From: Acetobacter okinawensis
GTDB lineage: Bacteria > Pseudomonadota > Alphaproteobacteria > Acetobacterales > Acetobacteraceae
Assembly (NCBI RefSeq): GCF_002153655.1
Contig: NZ_JOPJ01000001.1
Location: forward strand, 1 to 64,000
Direction: 5' to 3'
Length of the DNA: 64,000 bases
This document shows positions 7,663 through 21,416 of the stretch, one piece after another. Positions within the stretch are counted from its first letter, which is position 1. The number at the start of each line of letters is the position of its first letter. Below the pieces are notes generated by a model, which had not been told where the DNA came from, did not search any database, and saw nothing but the letters and a program-made list of their open reading frames with translations. Position numbers and translations under genes: made by a program.

Positions 7663-8412
7663 CTACGCGCCCTTTTCCATAAGCAGAATATCCCCTGTTG
7701 CGATTGTCTTCATTCCACGTTCCGTATCCAGCAGCAGGCGCCCGTCTTCGGCCAGCCCAGCAAACAGCCCCTTCTCATAAGTAGTCCCGCCCTGAACGAC
7801 AAGGGGGGTCCCCAAAGGATGCGCCCTTTCCAGCCAGGCATTACGGATGGGGGCAAACCCTTTTTGCCGCCATTGCCTGCACCACAGGGCTAGCCCATCA
7901 AGCACATGGCGGGCCACAATTTCCACATCCGGGACCATGCCACATTGCGCCAGACAGGCTACTGGCCGCTCCAGCTGGCTTTGCTGGGGAGCCGCCGCCA
8001 GATTGGCCCCAAGCCCCACAAGAACATAATCGCCTTCCCGCTCAATGAGGATTCCCCCCATTTTCCGCCCGTCCAGCAGAATATCATTTGGCCATTTGAT
8101 CGTCAGGTGGCCCTGTGCAGCGGGAACAGCGCGCAACAGCCCATCGTAAAACCCCAGAGAGGCGACAAAGGGCCAGCCCCCCAGAGCATCCGGCCCGGCC
8201 TGCGCCCCAGCCTGCACAACGCTCAACGCAAGCCCCTGCCCTCCGTCCAGCCAGCTCCGGCCACGGCTGCCGCGCCCTTTGGTCTGGCGGCGGGCCAGCA
8301 CAGCAAGCCCTGTAACATCTTCCTCCGTGCGGCAGACATTCAGGCAATAGTCGGAGGTCGATGGCAGCTCATCAAAACAGGTCAGCCGCCAGACATCACT
8401 TTGCCCGCTCAT
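7663..8412 (-). CDS. birA: Biotin--[acetyl-CoA-carboxylase] ligase, no DNA-binding domain
   Basis: A 249-residue biotin protein ligase that activates biotin with ATP and attaches it to the carboxyl carrier protein of acetyl-CoA carboxylase. It shows GRGSRGRSW (biotinyl-adenylate loop), [18 protein letters not shown] and a C-terminal SH3-like cap. No N-terminal winged helix is present, so this is the monofunctional type and not a repressor of biotin genes. Its ATG overlaps the nuoN stop by 4 bases, so it is translationally coupled to the complex I operon. Confidence 0.93.
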
Positions 8413-9851
8413 CCCGCCAGAGCTAGGGCCGCCTGATGCGCAACCGACATAAGTGGGCCAAGCATGATGGCAAAAACAACAGTGGCAACACCCATCCCGC
8501 CCGACACAAACAGCAGGCTGGGAGCCGGCCGGTCCAGCGTAGGCGCTGGCGCATCAAAATACATAACTTTCACAACCCGCAGATAATAATAGGCTCCGAC
8601 TATGCTGGACAATGCGCCAATGCTGACCAGCACGTAAAGACCAGATTGCCACGCAGCTGCAAAAACCATGAACTTGCCAAAAAAACCGGCAAGTGGTGGC
8701 GCTCCCACCATGCTGAACATGAAAATAGCCAGAGCAAGCGCCATACCCGGATCGGTGCGGCCTAGTCCGGCAAGGTCGGCAATGGAATTGACCTCCCGCC
8801 CGTTCCGCCGCATGGCGGTAATGCCTGCAAAAACACCGGCATTCATCACAAAATAGGCGGCAAGATAAATCAGTGTGGCCTGTATGCCTGCGGTGCTGGC
8901 CGCTGCAAGCCCCATCATGGCGTACCCCATATGCCCGATGGAGGAATAGGCCATCAGCCGCTTGATATTGGTCTGCGGGATTGCCGCAAAAGCACCATAG
9001 ACCATAGACAGCACAGATACCGCCTCAATCAGTATCTGCCAGCGTGGAGCAACCGAGCCGAACGGCCCCGCCATAACACGCAGGAACAGCGCAAACGCCG
9101 CAAACTTGGGTGCACCAGCCATGTAAGCTGTAACCGGTGTGGGAGCGCCCTGATAAACATCGGGCGTCCACATATGGAATGGCACAGCGGAGAGCTTGAA
9201 GCACAACCCCACAACAACAAACACAATACCAACAACCAGCCCCATGGGGGGCAGCCCGGAAGCACGCACGGCCTCAACCAGCCCACTATACTCCATGGTG
9301 CCCGCATACCCGTAAACGAGCGAAATGCCATAAAGCAGCAGGCCAGATGCCAAAGACCCCAGAATAAAATACTTCATCCCCGCCTCGGAGGAGAGGACAT
9401 TGTCCCGCTCCACCGCACACAGGATGTAAATGGAGAGGGAAGACAGTTCCAGCCCGACAAACAATGTCATCAAATTGGCCGAGGACGCCATAAGCATGGC
9501 CCCCAGTGTGGAGAACAGCATGAGCACCGGCGTCTCAAACGGCAGGGACTGCCGCTCAGGCGTGCGGTAGCTTACACTCAGGGCCACAGCCACAAAGCCG
9601 CCCGCCAGAATAAGCTCCTTCATAAACCGGGCAAAACCGTCATTCACAAATGTTGCGGCATACCCTGCCCCTGAAGGCGCAAGCACAACCAGAAAACCAC
9701 AGAGCACAAACGCAGCAAGGCTGAGTATGGCAGCGGGAAAAAAGCCTTCCCCCTTTTTGCAGAGCACACCAGCTACAAGAATGATGATACCCGATACAGC
9801 AAGAACAATTTCGGGCAGGGCCACAGCCCAGTTGAACACTGTCACACTCAT
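8409..9851 (-). CDS. nuoN: NADH-quinone oxidoreductase subunit N (NuoN)
   Basis: A 480-residue polytopic membrane protein, one of the three antiporter-like proton-pumping subunits of complex I. Conserved features include the segment with GLELSSLSIYIL in the N-terminal half, whose Glu lies in the proton path. The later KLSAVPFHMWTPDVYQG supplies the lysine and HMW block. The length is normal. Its start overlaps the stop of a 20-codon frame just upstream (ATGA), which appears to be all that remains of nuoM. Confidence 0.95.
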   Translation of the reverse strand: MSVTVFNWAVALPEIVLAVSGIIILVAGVLCKKGEGFFPAAILSLAAFVLCGFLVVLAPSGAGYAATFVNDGFARFMKELILAGGFVAVALSVSYRTPERQSLPFETPVLMLFSTLGAMLMASSANLMTLFVGLELSSLSIYILCAVERDNVLSSEAGMKYFILGSLASGLLLYGISLVYGYAGTMEYSGLVEAVRASGLPPMGLVVGIVFVVVGLCFKLSAVPFHMWTPDVYQGAPTPVTAYMAGAPKFAAFALFLRVMAGPFGSVAPRWQILIEAVSVLSMVYGAFAAIPQTNIKRLMAYSSIGHMGYAMMGLAAASTAGIQATLIYLAAYFVMNAGVFAGITAMRRNGREVNSIADLAGLGRTDPGMALALAIFMFSMVGAPPLAGFFGKFMVFAAAWQSGLYVLVSIGALSSIVGAYYYLRVVKVMYFDAPAPTLDRPAPSLLFVSGGMGVATVVFAIMLGPLMSVAHQAALALAG

Positions 9852-9910
9852 CGCGCGGCACTCCGCTGAGGATAGAAAGAGAACAAGGTCGGAATGGTGG
9901 CGTTGGTCAT
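9848..9910 (-). pseudogene. nuoM: Apparent nuoM remnant (20 codons)
   Basis: This is the only open frame between nuoL and nuoN, where nuoM lies in a standard nuo operon. It starts with ATG 6 bp after the nuoL stop, with GGGTGA as a ribosome binding site, and encodes MTNATIPTLF followed by SFYPQRSAAR. Its TGA overlaps the nuoN ATG. A normal NuoM has about 500 residues and 14 membrane helices. Operon-like junctions at both ends suggest the start and end codons of nuoM survive while the body has been removed in frame. That the two halves derive from NuoM is inference; I cannot align them. Confidence 0.55.
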
Positions 9911-9916
9911 GTTAAA

Positions 9917-11869
9917 TCACCCGCACAGCGCAACAGTCAGCAGCACCACAAGCCCTGCCAGCATGGTAAAGGCGTAAATGGCAATGGAGCCGCTCTGGAG
10001 CCTGACAGCCTGCAACGCGCTGTCATGCGTGGCACGCACGATGTCCAGCGGCAGACCTTCCACAACACCTTCGTCCGCCCCTTTCCACAGCACACGTGCC
10101 AGCGCTGCATAGGGACGCACGAAAATCCTGTCGTACAGCTCGTCAAAATACCATTTATTGAGCAAGAAGCGGTAGATTGGCCCAAAGCTACGGGCGAGCG
10201 CCGCTGGCACCTGCGGTGCACGCACATACAGGACAAAGGCCAGCGCAATCCCCGCAAGCCCGGCAATGCTGGGCAACAGGGCGATCAGGGACGGCACGTG
10301 CTCAAACGCTTCCATAATGTGGTTGGTAGGCGCATTAACGATAGCGCCGTTCCAGAACGCCCCCTGATGTGCACCAATGTAGTATGGCGCCAGCGCCACG
10401 CCTGCCACAACCGCCCCCACGGACAACACCAGTAACGGCACGGTCATGACTGCCGGGCTTTCATGCGCGCCATCATGTGCATGAGCGTCATGCGGTGTGC
10501 CATGAAAAACCAGAAACAGCAGTCTCCAGCTATAAAACGCTGTCAGAAAAGCCGTAATACTGCCCAAGGCCCATGCATAATGGCTGTAGGAAGCATCGGA
10601 CGCCCACAACGCATTCAGAATGGCATCTTTGGACCAGTATCCGGCAAACGGATAAACCCCGGCCAGCGCCAGACTGCCCAGCCACATAACCACATAGGTT
10701 ACGGGCAGTTTTTTCCATAAGCCCCCCATGCGGAACATGTTCTGCTCGTCGTGCATGGCATGAATGACGGAGCCTGCGGCCAAAAACAGAAGTGCCTTGA
10801 AAAAAGCATGCGTGGTCAGATGGAAGACAGCAGCCTGATACGCCCCCACCCCAACGGCTGCAAACATATAGCCAAGCTGCGAGCAGGTGGAATAGGCAAT
10901 GGTCCGCTTGATGTCTGGCTGCACCATGCCAACGGTTGCCGCAAAAAAGCAGGTTGTAGCGCCAATCAGAATAACAAAGCAGCGTGTGCCGGGGGCAAAC
11001 TCCAGTAAGGGAGACATGCGCGCCATCAAAAACACACCTGCGGTTACCATGGTTGCAGCGTGGATCAGGGCCGATACAGGCGTTGGCCCTTCCATCGCAT
11101 CCGGTAGCCATGTGTGCAGGAACAACTGGGCCGACTTGCCCATAGCACCCACAAACAACAGGAAGCAGATGACCTCCAGCATACGGATGGATACGCCGCA
11201 TATGGTATAAGGCACGTTCAGCACATCTGGCACGGCTGCAAACACGGCATCATACTGCACTGTGTGGAACAGAACGTAGATCAGCCCGATGCCGACAATA
11301 AAAAACAGATCCGCCACGCGGTTGACCACAAATGCCTTGATAGCCGCTGCCGTGGCCGCCGGGCGGTCATACCAGTAACCGATCAGCAGATAACTGGCCA
11401 GGCCCACACCCTCCCAGCCAAAAAAGAGCTGGATCAGGTCATTGGAAGAAACCAGCATAAGCATGGCAAAAGTAAACAGCGACAGATAGGAGAAGAACCG
11501 ATAGGTCGGCATGCTCTCGTGGCTCATGTAGCCAATGCTGTAGCAATGCACGAGCAGGGACACCACAAGCACCATGGCCACCATGGTAACGGAGAGCGTG
11601 TCAAACCGCAGGGTCCATGTGGCGTCAAACCCACCAGCGTGCACCCATTGCGCCAATGGCACGCTGGCGTGCGGAAAACCACTCTGCCACGCACCGCACA
11701 GAGCGCCCACACCACATAGGGCCGCAACTGCCATACAGGCTATGGTTACAACCTTGGCGAGAGCATCGCCCATAAACCGCCCGCCAAGCCCCGCGACAAC
11801 AGCCCCCGCCATGGGAGCAAGCACGGCAACGGAAAACAGGTTGAGTTCTGTTTGCATAACGCTGCTCAT
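9917..11869 (-). CDS. nuoL: NADH-quinone oxidoreductase subunit L (NuoL)
   Basis: A 650-residue membrane subunit at the distal end of the complex I arm. It is antiporter-like, with the block [16 protein letters not shown] carrying the conserved Glu, and with [25 protein letters not shown]-type sequence. The C-terminal part contains the long lateral helix region and ends in a hydrophobic helix. The ATG overlaps the nuoK stop by 4 bases (ATGA). In a normal operon nuoM would follow; here nuoN begins only 65 bp after the nuoL stop. Confidence 0.95.
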
Positions 11870-12189
11870 CCCTTCATCATCGTCACGTCTTCGACCTGGA
11901 TGGAGCCGCGGTTACGGAAGTAGACCGTAACAATAGCAAGCCCGATGGCCGCTTCTGCCGCTGCAATGGTCAGTACGAACAGCACCATGACCTGCCCCGA
12001 CAGGTCCCCGTGAGCCGAGGAAAATGCCACCAGATTAAGGTTGGCCGAAAGCAGGATCAGCTCCATGGACATGAGCAGAACAATAATGTTCTTACGGTTC
12101 AGAAAAATGCCAAACACCCCCAGAACCAGAAGTGCAGCACTAACAAACAGGTAAGGTCCAAGCCCCACAGACGCGATTGCCGGGTTCAT
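11866..12189 (-). CDS. nuoK: NADH-quinone oxidoreductase subunit K (NuoK)
   Basis: A 107-residue, three-helix membrane subunit of complex I that contributes to the E-channel between the quinone site and the pumping subunits. The conserved glutamate of the second helix lies in [18 protein letters not shown], and a second in [10 protein letters not shown]. It overlaps both neighbours by 4 bases (ATGA), typical of tightly coupled nuo genes. Confidence 0.95.
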
Positions 12190-12899
12190 GCGCCTTTCTC
12201 CTCGGTTTCCGTCTTATCCGGCTCACCCGCACCATAGGAGCCGGGAACCGCAATTTCGTAATAGGAGCCTTTGGGGCGCAGGAAACCGCCCTGTTCAAAC
12301 ACATTTTCGCCAAGTGGCAGATTAACCAGCTCCAGCGTTTCTTCACGTGTGCGTGCATGCTGCCGACCAATGTTCTGGCGGCGGCCAGTTGCGGTGCTGC
12401 GCAGCGTCAGCACGATCGCCCCGATCATGGCGACCAGCAGGACAAGCCCGCAGGCCTGAAAAAGCAGCACATAATGCGTGTAAATAACCGTACCCAGAGC
12501 GGCTGTATTGGTCAGCGCCGGGTCCACCGCCAAAGGCGCGACCACACCCGCAGGCGCCATGCGCCAGTTGCTAAAGGCCATGAGCAGTTCAGCCAGCAGC
12601 ACACCCCCGATGCACAGGCCCAGAGGCGCATAACGCTGGAACCCCTCGCGCAGGCGACTGAAGTCTATATCCAGCATCATCACCACAAACAGGAAGAGAA
12701 CCGCTACCGCCCCGACGTAAACAATGACCAGAAGCATGGCCAAAAACTCGGCCCCCGCGACCAGAAACAGCCCCGCAGCGTTAAAAAAGCCCAGAATGAG
12801 GAACAACACCGCATGAACGGGATTGCGGGCACTAATGACCATGGCGGCCGAAAGCAGCAGCACTGCCGCAAAAACATAAAAAACGAGCTGTGCCATCAT
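12186..12899 (-). CDS. nuoJ: NADH-quinone oxidoreductase subunit J (NuoJ)
   Basis: A 237-residue membrane subunit with five predicted helices, containing the pi-bulge helix segment [19 protein letters not shown] that links quinone reduction to pumping. The last 60 residues form a hydrophilic tail longer than in E. coli (about 184 residues), as in other alphaproteobacteria. AGGAGG lies 7 bases before the start. It sits 36 bp after nuoI. Confidence 0.94.
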
Positions 12900-12935
12900 T
12901 GGCCAACCTCCTGCCCTGACGTGGTCTGCATCTGC

Positions 12936-13424
12936 TCAGCGATACGGCGCATCAAGTTCGAGCCTCCGTGCCAGCAGAGACTCCCAGCGATCTCCGTTCG
13001 CAAGGAGCTTGCCTTTGTCGTACATCAGCTCTTCGCGGGTTTCCGTAGCAAATTCGTAGTTGGGGCCTTCAACAATTGCATCTACGGGGCAGGCTTCCTC
13101 GCACAGTCCACAATAGATGCATTTGGTCATGTCAATGTCATACCGCGTGGTGCGGCGCGACCCGTCATCACGCTCTTCGGCCTCAATGGTAATGGCCTCA
13201 GCCGGGCACGTGGCCTCGCACAGTTTGCAGGCAATGCAGCGCTCCTCCCCGTTGGGGTAGCGCCGCAGAGCGTGCTCACCCCTGAACCGGTGGGACAACG
13301 GACCTTTCTCATACGGATAGTTCAGCGTGACCTTGGGCTTGAACATCATACGGAATGTGGAAACCATGCCCGCCGCCAGTTCCTTGAGCAGGAAAGACCG
13401 CAATGTGGTGCCAAGAGCGCTCAT
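12936..13424 (-). CDS. nuoI: NADH-quinone oxidoreductase subunit I (NuoI)
   Basis: A 162-residue ferredoxin-like subunit holding two [4Fe-4S] clusters, N6a and N6b, on the way from NuoG to NuoB. The motifs are [12 protein letters not shown] (Cys63, 66, 69 and 73) and [12 protein letters not shown]. The start at 13424 overlaps the nuoH stop by one base (TGATG) and gives the usual family length. A longer frame of 195 codons reaches into nuoH but has no support. Confidence 0.95.
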
Positions 13425-14452
13425 CAATTCACCCCTCCCATATGGGGCAGCAGACCTGTTGCCATAAGAAAGCCAGCCGTACCGATCATCCACAGTAAAG
13501 AGAACGGCAAGAACACCTTCCATCCAAGCCGCATCAACTGATCGTATCGGTAACGCGGGAACGTCGCGCGCACCCAGATAAAGACAAACAGACAGAACAG
13601 GATTTTAAAAATCAGCCACAGCGGGCCGGGTACCCATGTCAGTGGCGCAATACCCAGCGGGGGCAGCCACCCACCAAGGAACAGAATGCTGACCATGGAG
13701 GACATAAGGATCATGTTCGCGTATTCGCCCAGAAAGAACAGGCCGAAGGCGAGCGATGAATATTCTACAAAAAAGCCTGCAACCAGTTCACTCTCCCCTT
13801 CGGGCAAGTCAAACGGGGCACGGTTGGTTTCCGCCAACGCGGAGATAAAAAACACGATGAACATCGGGAACATCGGCACACAGAACCATATGTGCCGTTG
13901 CGCCAGCACAATATCGTTCAGGTTAAGGCTACCAACCGCGAGCAGGACCGACACGATCACCAGCCCGATGGACACCTCGTAGGAGACCATCTGCGCTGCC
14001 GAGCGCAAACCGCCCAAAAACGCATAACGTGAGTTGGATGCCCAGCCCGCAATGAGCATGCCATAAACCCCAAGGGAAGACATGGCGAGCAGGTAGAGAA
14101 TGCCAACATTGATGTTGGCCACCGCCAGCCCGTTACCCGTTGGAATAACGGCCCAGGCGGCCATGGCGAGCGAAAAGGTCAAAAACGGTGCGAACAGGAA
14201 CAAGGCCCGGTTGGCCCCTGCCGGGATAACCGTTTCCTTCACAATCATCTTGATCGCGTCTGCAAAGGCCTGCAACAGACCGAATGGTCCATTCACATTG
14301 GGGCCGCGCCGTTGCTGCATGGCCGCCATGACCTTGCGTTCCATCAGGGTCAGGTAGGCAACGCCAATCAGCAGGGGCACCAGCACCGCCAGTGTTTCCA
14401 GCAGCATCAGCAGGATCTGGCCCGCAAGGGTTTGGTAGAAAAAATATGCCAT
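13424..14452 (-). CDS. nuoH: NADH-quinone oxidoreductase subunit H (NuoH)
   Basis: A 342-residue subunit with eight or nine helices that forms the quinone entry site with NuoB and NuoD. Family blocks visible are [21 protein letters not shown] and [24 protein letters not shown], the latter carrying the acidic quinone-proximal loop. I chose the ATG at 14452, five bases after the nuoG stop. The frame extends 17 codons upstream into nuoG without a family match. Confidence 0.95.
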
Positions 14453-14457
14453 TGCCC

Positions 14458-16539
14458 TTACTCCGCCGCCACCGCAGGTGCCTTGCCATAAACCCTTGAG
14501 CACTCAGCCATGGTCTGGCTGGCGCGGCTTATGGTGTTGGTCTGGTAATAGTCCTGAACAACAGGTCGCAAAGGCGTTGCCATAAGCGTGCCATCGCGCA
14601 CACTGGCAGGTGTTGCCCCACTTTCCTGCTCACCGACCAGAAGCGGAACAGCCGTGTTGCCACAGGCAAAAACAGGATTGATCTGCGCCATATGGGCACG
14701 CAGTTCTTCCAGCGTGTCATACGGCAGGGTATGGCCTACCACCTCGGAAAAAGCCCGGATAATCCGCCAGTCTTCCCGCGCTTCCCCCGGAGCGAACACG
14801 GCGCGGAATGCGCGCTGCACCCGCCCTGCGGTGTTGACGTATGTTCCCGCTTTTTCGGTATAGGCCGCACCGGGGAGGATAATATCGGCCCGCTTGGCCG
14901 CTGCATCCCCATGATGGCCCAGATACACCACAAATGTTTCCGGCGGAATGCGGTCCAGCTGCACCTCATCTGCCCCCAGCAACCACAGGATTTCCACCCC
15001 GCCACGGAGCATACTGGCTGCATCACACCCATGGGGGCCGGGTACAAACCCAAGGTCCAGCGCCCCGACGCGTGACGCCGCCGTGTGCAGAATGTTCAAA
15101 CCCTGCCACTGCGGCGTTATGGCGCCACAGGCATGTGCAAGATCACGGCAGGCAGCATAAATGGCTGGAGCATCCCGCCGGGTCAGGGCCGCATGGCCCA
15201 GAATAATCATGGGCTTTTTGGCGTTTTTCAAAACTTCGGCAAACGCATGTTGCCCGTCCAGCAGCTCAGCCAGTGTATCCGGCCCGCTGCCTAGCACGCT
15301 CACATCATAGGTCATATCCGCCGTTGGCGTGCCGATCATGCCAATGGGGAAGCCCCCACGTCCTGCGTCGACAAACCGTTTGCGGATACGCGCATTGAGC
15401 ACCGGCGCTTCATGCCGGGGCATGGTGCCAACCAGCAACAGCGCATCGGCCTGATCAATCCCGCTTATATCGCTGTTGAACAGGTAGCCGGAACGGCTTG
15501 AGGTATCATACCACGCACCGTCCTGCCGACAGTCCAGATTGGATGACCCCATACCTTGCAAAAGGTCTTTTATTGCACACAGGCTTTCTGCATCACACAG
15601 ATCACCCGCTATGGCCCCGATCTTATCACCCGGCACACCGTCAAACCGACGGGCCAGAGCGATCAGCGCATCTTTCCATGATACGGAAGACAGTTTTCCA
15701 TGCACCCTGACCCACGGCCTATCCAGCCGCTTACGCTTGAGTCCATCAATGGAAAAACGTCCTTTATCAGACAGCCATTCTTCGTTGACCTCATCATTCA
15801 CGCGGGGGACAATCCGCATGACTTCCCCCCCACGGGCCTGGACCTGAATATTGGTGCCCAGCGCGTCCATGACATCAATGCTGTCGGTCTTTTTATATTC
15901 CCATGACCGGGCATGGAACGCAGCGGGCTTGGCTGTAAGGGCACCAACGGGGCAGACATCAATCAGATTACCGGAGAGTTCGGATGTCAGGGCTTTTTCC
16001 ACATAGGTGGTGATTTCAGCATTCTCCCCGCGGGAGACAAGCCCGAGTTCGGGTGTGCCGGCCACTTCCGTACTAAAGCGCACACACCGCGTGCACTGGA
16101 TGCAGCGCGTCATAACCGTTTTGACCAGTGGCCCCAGATCCTTGTCCGTGACCGCCCGTTTATCTTCCTTGTAACGCGAAATACCAGACCCATACCCATA
16201 GGCCTGATCCTGCAGGTCGCACTCCCCACCCTGATCGCAGATCGGGCAATCCAGCGGGTGGTTGATCAGTAGGAATTCCATAACAGCCCGGCGGGCGCGG
16301 CGCACCATCTCGGTGTCCGTAAAAATCTGCATGCCATCAGCCACAGGAAAACCGCAGGAGGCAACAGGCTTGGGTGCACGCGCCACTTCCACCAGACACA
16401 TGCGGCAATTCCCCGCAACAGACAGGCGCTCGTGGTAACAAAAGCGCGGAATTTCCTTACCCGCCGCCTCGCAGGCCTGCAACGCGCTGGAACCGGGAGG
16501 AACGTCTACTGGCGTGCCGTCAACTATTACCCTCACCAT
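14458..16539 (-). CDS. nuoG: NADH-quinone oxidoreductase subunit G (NuoG)
   Basis: The 693-residue largest peripheral-arm subunit. The N-terminal [2Fe-2S] ligands are Cys34, Cys45, Cys48 and Cys62. [27 protein letters not shown] and CPVGALT then carry the [4Fe-4S] clusters. The C-terminal two-thirds is a molybdopterin-oxidoreductase-like domain without cofactor function. The start at 16539, five bases after the nuoF stop, gives MVRVIVDG. The longer frame to 16677 runs inside nuoF and is rejected. Confidence 0.95.
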
Positions 16540-16544
16540 TGCCG

Positions 16545-17873
16545 TTACTCCACTGCTGCCGGAACGCCACCGGCGGGCACCTGCACCAGCCCGGTGCTGC
16601 CATACGCCGCCTTGTACTGGCGGATACGTGCTTCCATTTCTGGGCGAAAATGCCGGATAAGCCCCTGTATGGGCCATGCCGCTGCATCCCCCAGCGCACA
16701 GATCGTATGCCCTTCCACCTGCCGGGTGACCTGCTCCAGCAGATCTATTTCCTCAATATCCGCGCGGCCCTGAACCATGCGGTCCATCATGCGCATCATC
16801 CAGCCCGTTCCTTCACGGCAGGGGGTGCACTGCCCACAGCTTTCATGCTTGAAAAACTTTGAGAACCGGGCGATCGCTTTTATAATATCGGTCGATCTGT
16901 CCATAACAATCATGCAGGCTGTGCCAAGGCCTGAGCGTTCGGCGCGCAGGCTGTCATAATCCATAAGAACAGTCTCACACACAGCTTTTGGCAATAGCGG
17001 TACGGAACAGCCACCCGGAATAACCGCCAGCAGGTTGTCCCACCCACCGCGCACACCACCACCGTGTTTTTCAATAATATCCCTGAGCGGCACGCCCAAT
17101 TCTTCCTCAAACACACAGGGTGTGTTGACATGGCCCGATATGGCCATGAGCTTGGAGCCCGCATTGTTGGGACGACCAAGCCCCGCAAACCACTCGGCTC
17201 CACGCCGCAAAATGGTGGACGTAACGGCAATGCTCTCCACATTGTTTACAGTTGTGGGGCAGCCATAAAGCCCTACCCCGGCAGGGAATGGCGGCTTCAT
17301 GCGGGGCTGGCCTTTTTTACCTTCAAGACTTTCCAGCAAGGCCGTTTCTTCACCGCAGATATAGGCACCCGCGCCACGGTGGATACGAAAATCAAAATCC
17401 CATCCGCTGCCAGCTGCATTTTTCCCGAGCAGACCTGCTGCGTAAGCCTCGTCAATAGCCGCCTGCAAACGCTCGGCTTCTCGGAAAAACTCCCCACGAA
17501 TATAGATATAGGATGCATGAGCCCCCATCGCAAAAGATGCGATCAGCGCACTTTCTATCAGTTTGTGCGGCTCATGGCGCATGACCTCGCGGTCCTTGCA
17601 GGTACCGGGCTCGGACTCATCCCCGTTGATCACCAGATAATGCGGCCGTCCATCGGACTGTTTGGGCATGAAGGACCACTTCAACCCGGTAGGGAAGCCC
17701 GCACCACCTCGCCCACGCAGGCCAGAGGCCTTCATTTGTGCAATAATGGTATCGCGGCCTCTGGCAAGAATTTCTGCCGTGTTGCTCCAGTCACCCCGCT
17801 TGCGTGCGGCCTCCAGCCGCCAGTCATTCTGACCATACAGATTGGTGAAGATCCGGTCCTTGTCAGCCAGCAT
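16545..17873 (-). CDS. nuoF: NADH-quinone oxidoreductase subunit F (NuoF)
   Basis: The 442-residue NADH-binding subunit holding FMN and cluster N3. The glycine-rich [15 protein letters not shown] contacts NADH, and [19 protein letters not shown] belongs to the FMN site. [15 protein letters not shown] plus a later Cys ligate the [4Fe-4S] cluster. The start has GGAGAG six bases upstream. It is preceded by nuoE after 11 bp. Confidence 0.96.
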
Positions 17874-17884
17874 GGCCGTCTCTC

Positions 17885-18520
17885 CTATTCCTGTTCCACC
17901 GTGGAAGATGGCAGCAATGTCTTGCGCCCACCCAGTGGAGCCGAAACACTACGGTTAACAGTCGGTCCGGGCTCTGGCCGCCGCCCTGCCCTCAACTCGG
18001 CTATAACGGCCTGCGTGCGTTCGGCATTCATATCTTCATAGTAATCATCATCAACTTGCAGGATTGGCGCATTGGCGCAGGCCCCAAGACATTCCACCTC
18101 TGTCATGGTAAAAAGACCATCAGCACTGGTGCCACCAAAATGCTGGATACCTGTCGCTTTCTGGCAGGCCTCCACCACGTCATCCGACCCACGCAGCCAA
18201 CAGGGCGTGGTGGTGCAAACCTGCAAATGGTAACGCCCGATGGGGCGCGTGTTGAACATGGTGTAAAACGATGCGACTTCATAAACCCGCATGGCGGCCA
18301 TATCCAGGCGCTGGGCAATAACGTCCATGGCGACTACGGGCACCCAGGCGCTCCCCGTTACACGCCCCATCTGGCGTTGCGCGATATACAGCAGTGGCAT
18401 AACGGCACTTGCCTTGCGCTCTTGCGGATACTTGCTGAGAACACCAGCAATTTCCTCTTCCGATGCGGCATCGAAAACAAAGCTGTCCGGCTGTTCTGCC
18501 GGGGTCCAGACTGTGCTCAT
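17885..18520 (-). CDS. nuoE: NADH-quinone oxidoreductase subunit E (NuoE)
   Basis: A 211-residue thioredoxin-like subunit that carries the off-pathway [2Fe-2S] cluster N1a, ligated by two Cys in CTTTPC and two in ECLGAC. The C-terminal 35 residues are a hydrophilic, proline-rich tail beyond the core domain. Its ATG overlaps the nuoD stop (ATGA). Confidence 0.95.
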
Positions 18521-19800
18521 CGATCGACTTCTCCAAACACAAGATCAAGCGACCCGATAATAGCCACCATGTCGGCCAGCATACCGCGCCGCGAAAGCTC
18601 ATCTATGGCCTGTAGATGTGCAAATCCCGTCGGACGGATTTTGCAGCGATACGGCCTGTTGCTGCCATCGGCCACAAGATAGACGCCAAATTCTCCCTTA
18701 GGACTTTCCACCGCCGTGTAGGTTGAGCCCGCAGGAACGTGATAACCCTCGCTAAAAAGCTTGAAGTGATGGATCAGGGCTTCCATGGACCGCTTCATTT
18801 CCGCTCTGGGCGGCGGGCTGAACTTGGGGTCCTGCACCTTGATGTCACCCGCCTGCATCTGGCTCAGGCATTGCTCAATAATCCTGACACTTTCACGCAT
18901 TTCCGCAACACGGATCAGATAACGATCGTAGGAATCACCTTGACGTGTGACTGGCACCTTAAAATCAACCTTATGATAATTATCATATGGCTGGTTGCGC
19001 CTTAAATCCCATGGAACGCCAGAAGCACGCAGGCACGGGCCACTAAACCCCCATGCCAGAGCCTGTTCGGTTGTAAAAACACCAATACCGACCGTGCGCT
19101 GTTTCCATATCCTGTTTTCAGTCAGCAGACCTTCAAGCTCATCAATCCACGATGGGAACTCTCTGGCCCACACCCCAATCCTGTCTTCCAGACTGGTGGG
19201 TATGTCACGCGCAACACCACCGGGGCGAAAATAGTTGGCATGAAAGCGCGCACCGGATGCAGCTTCATAAAACTCCAGAAGTTTTTCGCGCTCTTCATAG
19301 CCCCACAAAGCTGGCGTTACCGCACCACAATCCAGCCCCATGGCGGTCAGATTGAGAATATGGTTAAGAATGCGGGTAATTTCCGCAAACATGACGCGCA
19401 GCCATTTGGCGCGCTCTGGAATATCAATCCCCAGAAGTTTTTCCGTGGCCAGAGCAAAAGCCTGCTCCTCGCACATGGGGGAGACATAATCCAGACGGTC
19501 AAAATATGGCAGGGCTTTTTGATACGTCTTGTATTCAATCAGCTTTTCCGTACCCCGGTGCAAAAGTCCTATATGGGGGACGGCACGGGCGACAAGCTCG
19601 CCTTCCATCTCAAGCACAAGACGCAGCACACCATGCGCTGATGGATGCTGAGGCCCAAAATTAAGAGCATGGGAGTCAATTTCGACAACCCTGTTTTCAA
19701 TTTCAAGCGCCTGCTGTTCTGGCAAAAGGCTTTGAGGAATATCCTCTTGCGGGACAGTTTGGGCAAACGCGAGGGATGGTGTGTTTTTCTGCTCGGTCAT
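18517..19800 (-). CDS. nuoD: NADH-quinone oxidoreductase subunit D (NuoD)
   Basis: A 427-residue subunit homologous to the [NiFe] hydrogenase large subunit, lining the quinone cavity. The family block [21 protein letters not shown]-type sequence begins near residue 45, and [15 protein letters not shown] follows. The first 40 residues are a variable extension. I chose the ATG at 19800, which overlaps the nuoC stop by one base (TGATG). The open frame further upstream lies within nuoC. Confidence 0.95.
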
Positions 19801-20459
19801 CAGCCAGACCTCTTCATACCCTGCCGGACCTCGTGTGCTTTTTCGTCTCCCGGTAGGGTCAGCATACCTTCCCACGGGGAAACAAAATCAAAATCACGAA
19901 AATCCTGTGTTAACGAAACAGGTTCCTTAACAACCTGCCTACGCTCCACGTCGTAGCGGACCTCCTCATACCCCGTCAGTGGGAAGTCCTTGCGCAGCGG
20001 ATGGCCTTCAAACCCGTTATCAGTGAGGATGCGACGCAAATCAGGCTGACCGGAGAACAAAACCCCGAACAGGTCATAACATTCCCGCTCCCACCAGGTC
20101 GCACAGGGCCACAGATGATGCACCGATGGCACCGCACCATACTCATCAGTCGTCACCACCACGCGGATACGCCGGTTATAGGTCACGGACAGCAGGTTAT
20201 AGACCACGTCAAACCGCTCTGCGCGGGCGGGAAAATCCACACCACACAAGTCCATCAACTGCTCAAACCGATAACGCGGGTCATCACGCAAAAGAGTCAG
20301 AAACGCCAGAAGATGCGAACGTGTTGTATGCACCACCAACTCCCCCTTCTCCACCGCTGCGTAAGAGACATGCGGCTGGGTTGAGAGGAATGTAAACGCC
20401 AAAGAGCATAACTGCCCTTCGAGCCTAGCCTGCATTGGATTTACAGAAATATCAGCCAC
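19800..20459 (-). CDS. nuoC: NADH-quinone oxidoreductase subunit C (NuoC)
   Basis: A 219-residue peripheral-arm subunit. Family blocks include [22 protein letters not shown] and a [24 protein letters not shown]-type segment, then [18 protein letters not shown]. It starts with GTG inside the last codons of nuoB (8-base overlap), suggesting translational coupling. NuoC and NuoD are separate genes here, not fused as in E. coli. Confidence 0.95.
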
Positions 20460-21015
20460 GGAGAATGGTCCCTGTCCGACGAATTTTTTTCTGGAGCAGC
20501 ATAATGCCGTAGATCAGCGCTTCTGCCGTAGGCGGGCAGCCGGGCACGTACACATCCACCGGCACAATACGGTCACACCCACGCACAACAGAGTAGGAGT
20601 AATGGTAATACCCCCCACCATTAGCACATGACCCCATGGAGATAACCCAGCGCGGCTCAGCCATCTGCTCATAGAGACGACGTAGAACCGGAGCCATTTT
20701 GTTGGTCAGTGTGCCTGCCACAATCATAACGTCTGACTGACGGGGTGACCCACGGGGGATAATGCCCATACGGTCCAGATCATAGCGCGGCATGTAAGCG
20801 TGAATCATTTCCACAGCACAGCATGCCAGCCCGAACGACATGGGCCACAAGCTACCCGTACGCCCCCAGTTAACCAGCTTGTCCAGGCTTGCAACCACAA
20901 ACCCTTTTTCTGCCAGAACCCCGGTAATGCCACGGACAACTGCGTCCTGCTCGGGGCCGGGGGGCAAAGCCTCCCTGTTCCACATAATGGCGTTTTCATC
21001 GTGATGTGTGGTCAT
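20452..21015 (-). CDS. nuoB: NADH-quinone oxidoreductase subunit B (NuoB)
   Basis: A 187-residue subunit carrying the terminal [4Fe-4S] cluster N2 that reduces quinone. The ligands are the tandem Cys65-Cys66 in [10 protein letters not shown], one Cys in [10 protein letters not shown] and one in [11 protein letters not shown]. The segment around [21 protein letters not shown] is typical. GGAGAG lies upstream of the ATG. It follows nuoA after 12 bp. Confidence 0.96.
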
Positions 21016-21027
21016 GCTGGCCTCTCC

Positions 21028-21393
21028 TCAATCCCAGTCCAGCGCGCCTTTGCGCCATTCATACAAAAAGCCGATCCCCAGCACGGCCAGAAAACCAAGC
21101 ATGGATAAAAAACCAAACAGCCCGATCCGCCCCAGACTAATGGCCCATGGGAACAGAAAAGCGACTTCCAGATCGAAAATAATGAAAAGAATGGCGACCA
21201 GATAAAAGCGCACGTCAAAACGGCGTCTGGTGTCATCAAAAGGTCCAAACCCGCATTCGTATGCTGTGAGTTTTTCTGGGTAGGGCTTCTGGTGTCCGCA
21301 GAGCAAAGCCATACCAAGCATTGCCGCCGCAATAACGACCGAAACACAACCAAAGATCAGGACCGGAGCATAGTCGCCTAGAACAGACTGCAT
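21028..21393 (-). CDS. nuoA: NADH-quinone oxidoreductase subunit A (NuoA), first gene of the operon
   Basis: A 121-residue, three-helix membrane subunit. The family block LTAYECGFGPFDDTRRRFDVRFYLVAILFIIFD-type sequence (the loop Cys lies in YECGF) is complete. The ATG at 21393 gives the standard length; a GTG five codons upstream is possible. It is the promoter-proximal gene of the 13-kb nuo operon. An inverted repeat lies just upstream. Confidence 0.94.
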   Translation of the reverse strand: MQSVLGDYAPVLIFGCVSVVIAAAMLGMALLCGHQKPYPEKLTAYECGFGPFDDTRRRFDVRFYLVAILFIIFDLEVAFLFPWAISLGRIGLFGFLSMLGFLAVLGIGFLYEWRKGALDWD

Positions 21394-21416
21394 GGAAAAT
21401 TCCCGCACGCATGAAA

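Follow-up and report, generated by a model that had tools for sequence, protein, structure and literature searches.

The nuoL-nuoN junction of Acetobacter okinawensis

The window analysed here is a stretch of 64,000 nucleotides (nt) from A. okinawensis (contig NZ_JOPJ01000001.1, positions 1 to 64,000), which carries on its minus strand a complex I operon in the order nuoA-B-C-D-E-F-G-H-I-J-K-L-N. An open reading frame (ORF) is recognised for each of the subunits A to L and N, and the interval between nuoL and nuoN has no space for a gene of NuoM size. A sequence-only reading of this DNA had reported that nuoM is gone from the operon, with the other nuo genes in their usual order and no room left for it, and the ORFs and family models bear this out. 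The interval holds a single ORF of 20 codons (here called the minigene, peptide MTNATIPTLFSFYPQRSAAR). We find that NuoM is encoded in trans, and propose that the minigene, at the old place of nuoM, probably acts as a ribosome relay coupling nuoN to nuoL. The features of the junction, in the direction of transcription, are as follows:

9917..11869, minus strand: nuoL, 650 amino acids, TIGR01974 785 bits, stop codon TGA at 9919-9917
9917..9922, minus strand: GGGTGA, Shine-Dalgarno (SD)-like sequence for the minigene, including the nuoL stop codon
9848..9910, minus strand: minigene, the sole ORF between nuoL and nuoN; such an ORF is found in 46 of 48 Acetobacter junctions
9861..9864, minus strand: GGAG, SD of nuoN, inside the minigene
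9848..9851, minus strand: ATGA, overlap of the minigene stop TGA and the nuoN start ATG
8409..9851, minus strand: nuoN, 480 amino acids, ATG at 9851-9849, 3' end overlapping birA by 4 nt

The minigene ATG (9910-9908) lies six bases past the nuoL stop and is followed by 20 sense codons and a TGA (9850-9848). The layout and coordinates first given for this junction (the ATG, the 20 codons, the TGA on the nuoN ATG and the GGGTGA) were correct on re-reading, and the nearest relative has a second genome (G022) whose junction is identical but for one spacer base. An assembly collapse or a laboratory deletion, both offered in the sequence-only reading, can be set aside, since nuoL directly precedes nuoN in all 48 Acetobacter genomes with NuoN, that of the window included. 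With this arrangement shared by all of them, the loss of nuoM from the operon is not recent.

NuoM is encoded in trans

When the genome to which the window belongs (2.72 Mb in 147 contigs, 100% complete) is searched with PF00361, three genes are recovered: nuoL and nuoN of the window, and one more on contig 118. The latter is uninterrupted and encodes 506 amino acids, scoring 556.7 bits against TIGR01972 (cut-off 263.8) and 575.9 against one equivalog model, slightly below the cut-off of 585. Residues 5-484 align with Paracoccus NuoM with the proton-path motif E/K/K/E retained, and this Glu/Lys/Lys/Glu motif is invariant across 12 aligned trans and lone NuoMs; the E. coli residue numbers are presumed to correspond to these motifs. 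The NuoM of the window's genome is 96% identical to that of an A. lovaniensis genome (G016). In E. coli NuoM, the proton-path residues are named as E144, K234, K265 and E407 (PMC9271201).

The end of mutL lies ∼117 nt before the trans nuoM, and then come a reversed rhtA-like gene and a parE-like gene. NuoM is present in all 49 Acetobacter genomes and NuoN in 48 of them, and NuoN is found at none of the 33 Acetobacter NuoM loci examined. The earlier suggestion of a complex I short of one proton channel therefore fails, and its other option, a NuoM encoded elsewhere, is the one realised: the genome profile search places an intact nuoM behind mutL on another contig, which rules out a genome without NuoM. 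Complex I is very probably of the ordinary kind here, with its middle antiporter subunit coming from the trans nuoM. A NuoM whose gene number is far from those of the other nuo genes changes in step with them in the proteome of A. pasteurianus (PMC10742644), with ratios of 0.62, 0.33, 2.16 and 1.78, beside 0.39, 0.24, 2.72 and 2.05 for one NuoB entry.

An element GAACGTGAAC-N8-GCTGG (L140:4206-4228) lies ∼60-85 nt before the lone nuoM and is present in exact form upstream of nuoM in at least 18 Acetobacter genomes. The rest of the window's genome contains only two weaker matches to a longer form of this pattern, with 2 mismatches each, and the element is a possible promoter or operator for the trans nuoM. 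A search for a motif common to the nuoA and nuoM upstream regions gave only 10-of-12 matches, and a sigma-70-like site was looked for near the trans nuoM and not found.

Conservation of the minigene frame and overlap

In each of the 48 Acetobacter junctions, the minigene was taken to begin at the first ATG between -4 and +25 relative to the nuoL stop with an open frame of 7 codons or more. An ORF ending on the nuoN start with a -4 or -1 nt overlap is observed in 46 of the 48 junctions, and its length ranges from 13 to 47 codons. Where the second nuoN codon does not start with A, the overlap is restored as TGATG or TAATG without a change of phase. Dinucleotide shuffles of the junctions lead to an expectation of 14.1 such ORFs under the first-ATG rule (43/48 observed) and of 14.6 if any ATG near the start is allowed (46/48 observed). 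Most of this expectation comes from 16 junctions in which the start codon overlaps the nuoL stop, whose frame is preserved in the shuffles; for the other 32 junctions, split off by hand, 27 are observed against ∼1.6 expected.

Evolution of the junction was followed on the NuoN tree (47 of 48 rows, G030 left out). The nuoL-nuoN distance underwent 17 changes, 11 of them changes of phase, and the spacer before the minigene underwent 10 phase changes, whereas the phase from minigene to nuoN changed only 2 times despite at least 14 changes in minigene length. If phases were free, two or fewer phase changes in 14 would have an approximate P of 8e-5.

The gap from nuoL to nuoN is 37-72 nt in 45 of the 48 genomes and 148 nt in three. 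In these three (G020, G032 and G035; L128, L131 and L134), a 47-codon minigene is still open and overlaps nuoN. In G030, the match to nuoN comes in three separate pieces (G030:C214:26025-27462), reflecting either sequencing errors or a decaying gene.

Codon variation and SD strength

Selection on the peptide was assessed in 37 of the 48 sequences, forming seven same-length groups (11 without a same-length clade were dropped), with the start codon and the last 15 nt excluded. Of 114 columns at each codon position, 37, 38 and 38 are variable at positions 1, 2 and 3, and synonymous changes make up 0.29 of the single-step changes, with 0.28 expected. Because the three positions vary equally, the peptide looks unselected. 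Many versions are rich in Phe and Ser, and the peptides of different clades have little in common beyond RSA, which is encoded in part of them by the nuoN SD. The junction thus has the signature of an upstream ORF (uORF) that delivers ribosomes, in which the frame is kept and the peptide is not (2 vs 11 phase changes; 37/38/38), and selection appears to act on translation itself. No common structure was seen when the folds of ten junctions were compared by eye.

Anti-SD energies, calculated with what we assume to be the 16S tail, average -7.0 for the minigene starts (46/48 junctions), -7.2 for nuoN and -3.0 for the background. Some 8% of background stretches are at least as strong as the minigene median, and the SD energy is only suggestive as a sign that the minigene is translated.

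A probable ribosome relay between nuoL and nuoN

In the proposed mechanism, ribosomes finishing nuoL, or binding the SD of the minigene itself, would translate the minigene, terminate on the ATGA or TGATG overlap at the nuoN start and then reinitiate on nuoN. The target of selection would be translation up to the nuoN start (start codon, frame and overlapping stop) and not the peptide. In Haloferax and E. coli reporters, gaps of ∼20 nt almost abolish coupling, and -4 and -1 overlaps couple (PMC10666635, PMC6728339); according to a review, delivery of a ribosome may be all that a short ORF does (PMC12548453). Given this limit, the Acetobacter gaps would leave nuoN uncoupled from nuoL were it not for the minigene, and together with the ribosome-delivering short ORFs it leads us to read the minigene as a relay. 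The stop/start overlap of coupled pairs is observed directly in 46 of the 48 junctions, including that of the window. Translation of the minigene, a resulting rise in nuoN translation and a balanced supply of NuoL and NuoN as its purpose are all inferred. Evenly poised in our judgement is the idea of a protein-coding gene that has no protein function, a mere ribosome conduit whose start, frame and stop are selected genus-wide as its codons drift, leaving NuoN stoichiometrically tied to NuoL.

Several points weigh against such a relay. nuoN has its own SD and could start uncoupled, and two of the 48 junctions deviate, one with a 14-nt overlap in another phase (G046) and one with an ORF that ends 7 nt short (G037). 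The neutrality test draws on 113 variable columns, with one of the seven groups deeply diverged. In the SD comparison the best of several in-frame ATGs was taken, which favours the minigene, and some of the 14 length changes behind the approximate P are mere start-codon shifts. Finally, 7 of the 12 trans-nuoM genomes outside Acetobacter have gaps of more than 20 nt to every nuoN ATG, and 5 of these 7 lack a relay ORF of at least 7 codons, from which it follows that uncoupled nuoN is tolerated in a trans-nuoM bacterium.

Scar, leader or micropeptide

The sequence-only reading took the 20 codons for the scar of an in-frame internal deletion, a remnant keeping the first and last codons of nuoM, which may or may not couple its neighbours. 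The minigene does occupy the exact place of nuoM in relatives, starting after nuoL and ending on the nuoN start like many cis nuoMs, and the window peptide weakly resembles cis NuoM N-termini (0.053 of shuffles are as good). Among 16 representatives, three (G004, G027 and G041) fall below 0.05 in this comparison and 12, besides that of the window, do not; several peptides of basal Acetobacter (G002, G021, G008 and G037) are no better than many shuffles, and the nuoM 3' end was compared with the minigene by eye only. The second nuoN codon accounts for the ATGA overlap, which is no proof of descent. Outside Acetobacter, nuoL and nuoN of the 12 trans-nuoM genomes lie -4 to 34 nt apart. One of these genomes has an ATG-started ORF (7 codons) ending on nuoN and one, G057, a TTG-started ORF (13 codons); 10 of the 12 have none of at least 7 codons. 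The ORF is thus not general in trans-nuoM lineages, and descent from nuoM would require its repeated loss. With this distribution and no consistent likeness to NuoM N-termini, the deletion scar is not borne out, and we consider it unlikely. A later gain is cheaper, and the cheapest history would place the origin of the minigene at or just before the base of Acetobacter; G057 is the nearest sister in the NuoN tree.

More doubtful still is a regulatory leader, in which a uORF would sense a condition and switch nuoN on or off by attenuation or stalling. Small ORFs with their own SD upstream of a gene are typical of leaders, and an intergenic small ORF that promotes downstream translation is known (PMC8092293), but no conserved peptide or codon run was seen in the minigenes, which vary in length from 13 to 47 codons with equal variation at the codon positions, and no shared fold was seen by eye in the ten junctions compared. 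A functional micropeptide, such as a small subunit or an assembly factor of complex I, would account for the conservation of the ORF and for the many Phe- and Ser-rich versions. It is very improbable in view of the 37/38/38 variable columns, a synonymous share as expected in the absence of selection, and peptides that share little beyond RSA between clades. A complex I lacking NuoM, or an assembly or laboratory artefact, found no supporting point and has a negligible chance, with NuoM in 49/49 Acetobacter genomes and reported in the A. pasteurianus proteome (PMC10742644), and with the G022 junction alike save one base.

Distribution and history of trans nuoM

The family was sampled by an even draw of 130 genomes, of which 103 yielded both NuoM and NuoN and six only one of the two. 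A script classed the 103 as 81 cis, 17 trans and 5 cis with an extra NuoM. On reading, two of the 17 were moved to cis: G099, in which the contigs are split after nuoL-nuoM, and G135, in which the hits are 905 nt apart. After this correction, trans nuoM is observed in 15 genomes of 11 genera, Acetobacter and ten more, and most family members examined still have nuoM between nuoL and nuoN. Among the best 80 loci of a named collection, 13 are trans (Acetobacter, Gluconacetobacter, Komagataeibacter, Commensalibacter and an uncultured Acetobacteraceae) and 67 have nuoL, nuoN or both beside nuoM. The 67 are labelled as Alphaproteobacteria, or in four cases only as Proteobacteria, with the exception of one Mycobacterium and one Marinimicrobia record, which are perhaps mislabelled.

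Within the flanks examined, 18 of 23 trans loci, deep-branching ones among them, have mutL close to nuoM, as do 9 of the 13 trans loci of the named collection; the exceptions (five of 23 and four of 13) include other Acetobacter. The prevalence of this neighbourhood, also at deep-branching loci, suggests one relocation followed by later moves.

Cis and trans NuoMs are separated by a branch of 0.63 + 0.36 = 0.99 changes per column, compared with 0.18 for NuoN. The long branch raised the question of a horizontal gain from outside the family, which is disfavoured by a tree with 28 alphaproteobacterial outgroups, in which the Acetobacteraceae NuoMs, both cis and trans, group on one side (100/99). 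Together with the labels of the best 80 loci, this tree favours trans nuoM as a fast-evolving copy of the family's own nuoM, which appears to fit better than an outside donor; an unsampled donor is possible.

Each genome of one genus (g100; G147, G180 and G181) encodes two NuoMs. One nuoM of G147 and of G180 lies within a complete nuoL-nuoM-nuoN, and the other copy is hundreds of kilobases away. The lone NuoM of g100 clusters with the trans NuoMs (100/100); that encoded in cis in G147 clusters with the cis NuoMs. Duplication of nuoM followed by loss of the cis copy would be the simplest history. The lone nuoM may also have passed from one lineage to another, because the NuoN of G147 groups with cis genomes (84/86) and is not sister of the trans clade. 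The cis and lone copies are at loci L138 and L139 in G147 and at L149 and L271 in G180, and mutL was not found in the stretches examined around the lone ones.

Four other genomes with two NuoMs were considered for the same lone line and rejected, two having nuoL or nuoN beside the second copy and two forming a line of their own. The second nuoMs L267 (G059) and L270 (G149) have no nuoL or nuoN in the stretch examined, and their line is separate from the trans nuoMs. In one Acetobacter genome (G018, 3.1 Mb, 99% complete), a full-length lone nuoM is present (C63:12129-13634, L032) and NuoN, NuoL and NuoD were not found; either a contig is missing, or the nuo operon was lost with nuoM left behind.

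Operon genes upstream of nuoL

Every operon subunit except NuoA scores above the curated cut-off of one NCBIfam model or more, and NuoA matches NuoA models with scores below their cut-offs. The genes, identified by ORF and family-model matches, are:

11866..21408, minus strand: nuoA-nuoK, the part of the operon upstream of nuoL
21028-21408, minus strand: nuoA
20452-21015, minus strand: nuoB
19800-20459, minus strand: nuoC
18517-19875, minus strand: nuoD
17885-18520, minus strand: nuoE
16545-17873, minus strand: nuoF
14458-16677, minus strand: nuoG
13424-14503, minus strand: nuoH
12936-13523, minus strand: nuoI
12186-12899, minus strand: nuoJ
11866-12189, minus strand: nuoK

Relation to known systems

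A separate nuoM in A. pasteurianus is already in print in the form of locus lists, and the available passages of these papers give it without distribution, history or minigene. As in the genomes described here, one complex I locus lies away from the nuo operon. In strain SKU1108, nuoM (APT_00690) is apart from the operon (APT_01737-01725), an arrangement conserved in three strains (PMC5158111), and in strain 386B the complex I locus APA386B_2247, which is not called nuoM there, is apart from loci 556-567 (PMC3751514). A nuo tree of acetic acid bacteria was built from nuoHIJKLN, nuoM being left out (PMC4596401).

The minigene-nuoN overlap in 46/48 junctions resembles the -4 (ATGA) and -1 (TGATG) termination-reinitiation pairs, and nuoL and nuoN encode subunits of one complex (PMC6728339, PMC10666635). 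It differs in that the upstream partner, the minigene, appears to encode no useful protein, and coupling is here read from sequence. In being short, with an overlapping stop and start and an apparently irrelevant peptide, the minigene is like the ribosome-delivering short ORFs that include the mycobacterial MIRUs (-4 spacing), which can also sit between two genes with coupling retained (PMC12548453). The minigene differs from these ORFs in its mid-operon position, where a gene has been lost, and in its retention in 46/48 junctions of one genus. In Salmonella, translation of a Mg2+ transporter is promoted by an intergenic small ORF, which likewise affects the next gene (PMC8092293), but by the title of that paper this ORF aborts translation, and the minigene has no sign of abortion. 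Among the matches listed in the open-licence PMC literature, no treatment of a minigene between nuoL and nuoN was found.

The Acetobacter junctions would make it possible to ask in nature, across many species, whether a gene can be worth keeping for translational coupling alone, as frame and overlap persist and the peptide does not. In several genera of vinegar bacteria, the middle pump subunit of complex I is very probably supplied from another locus, and the genus with both a cis and a lone nuoM opens subunit relocation and replacement to direct study.

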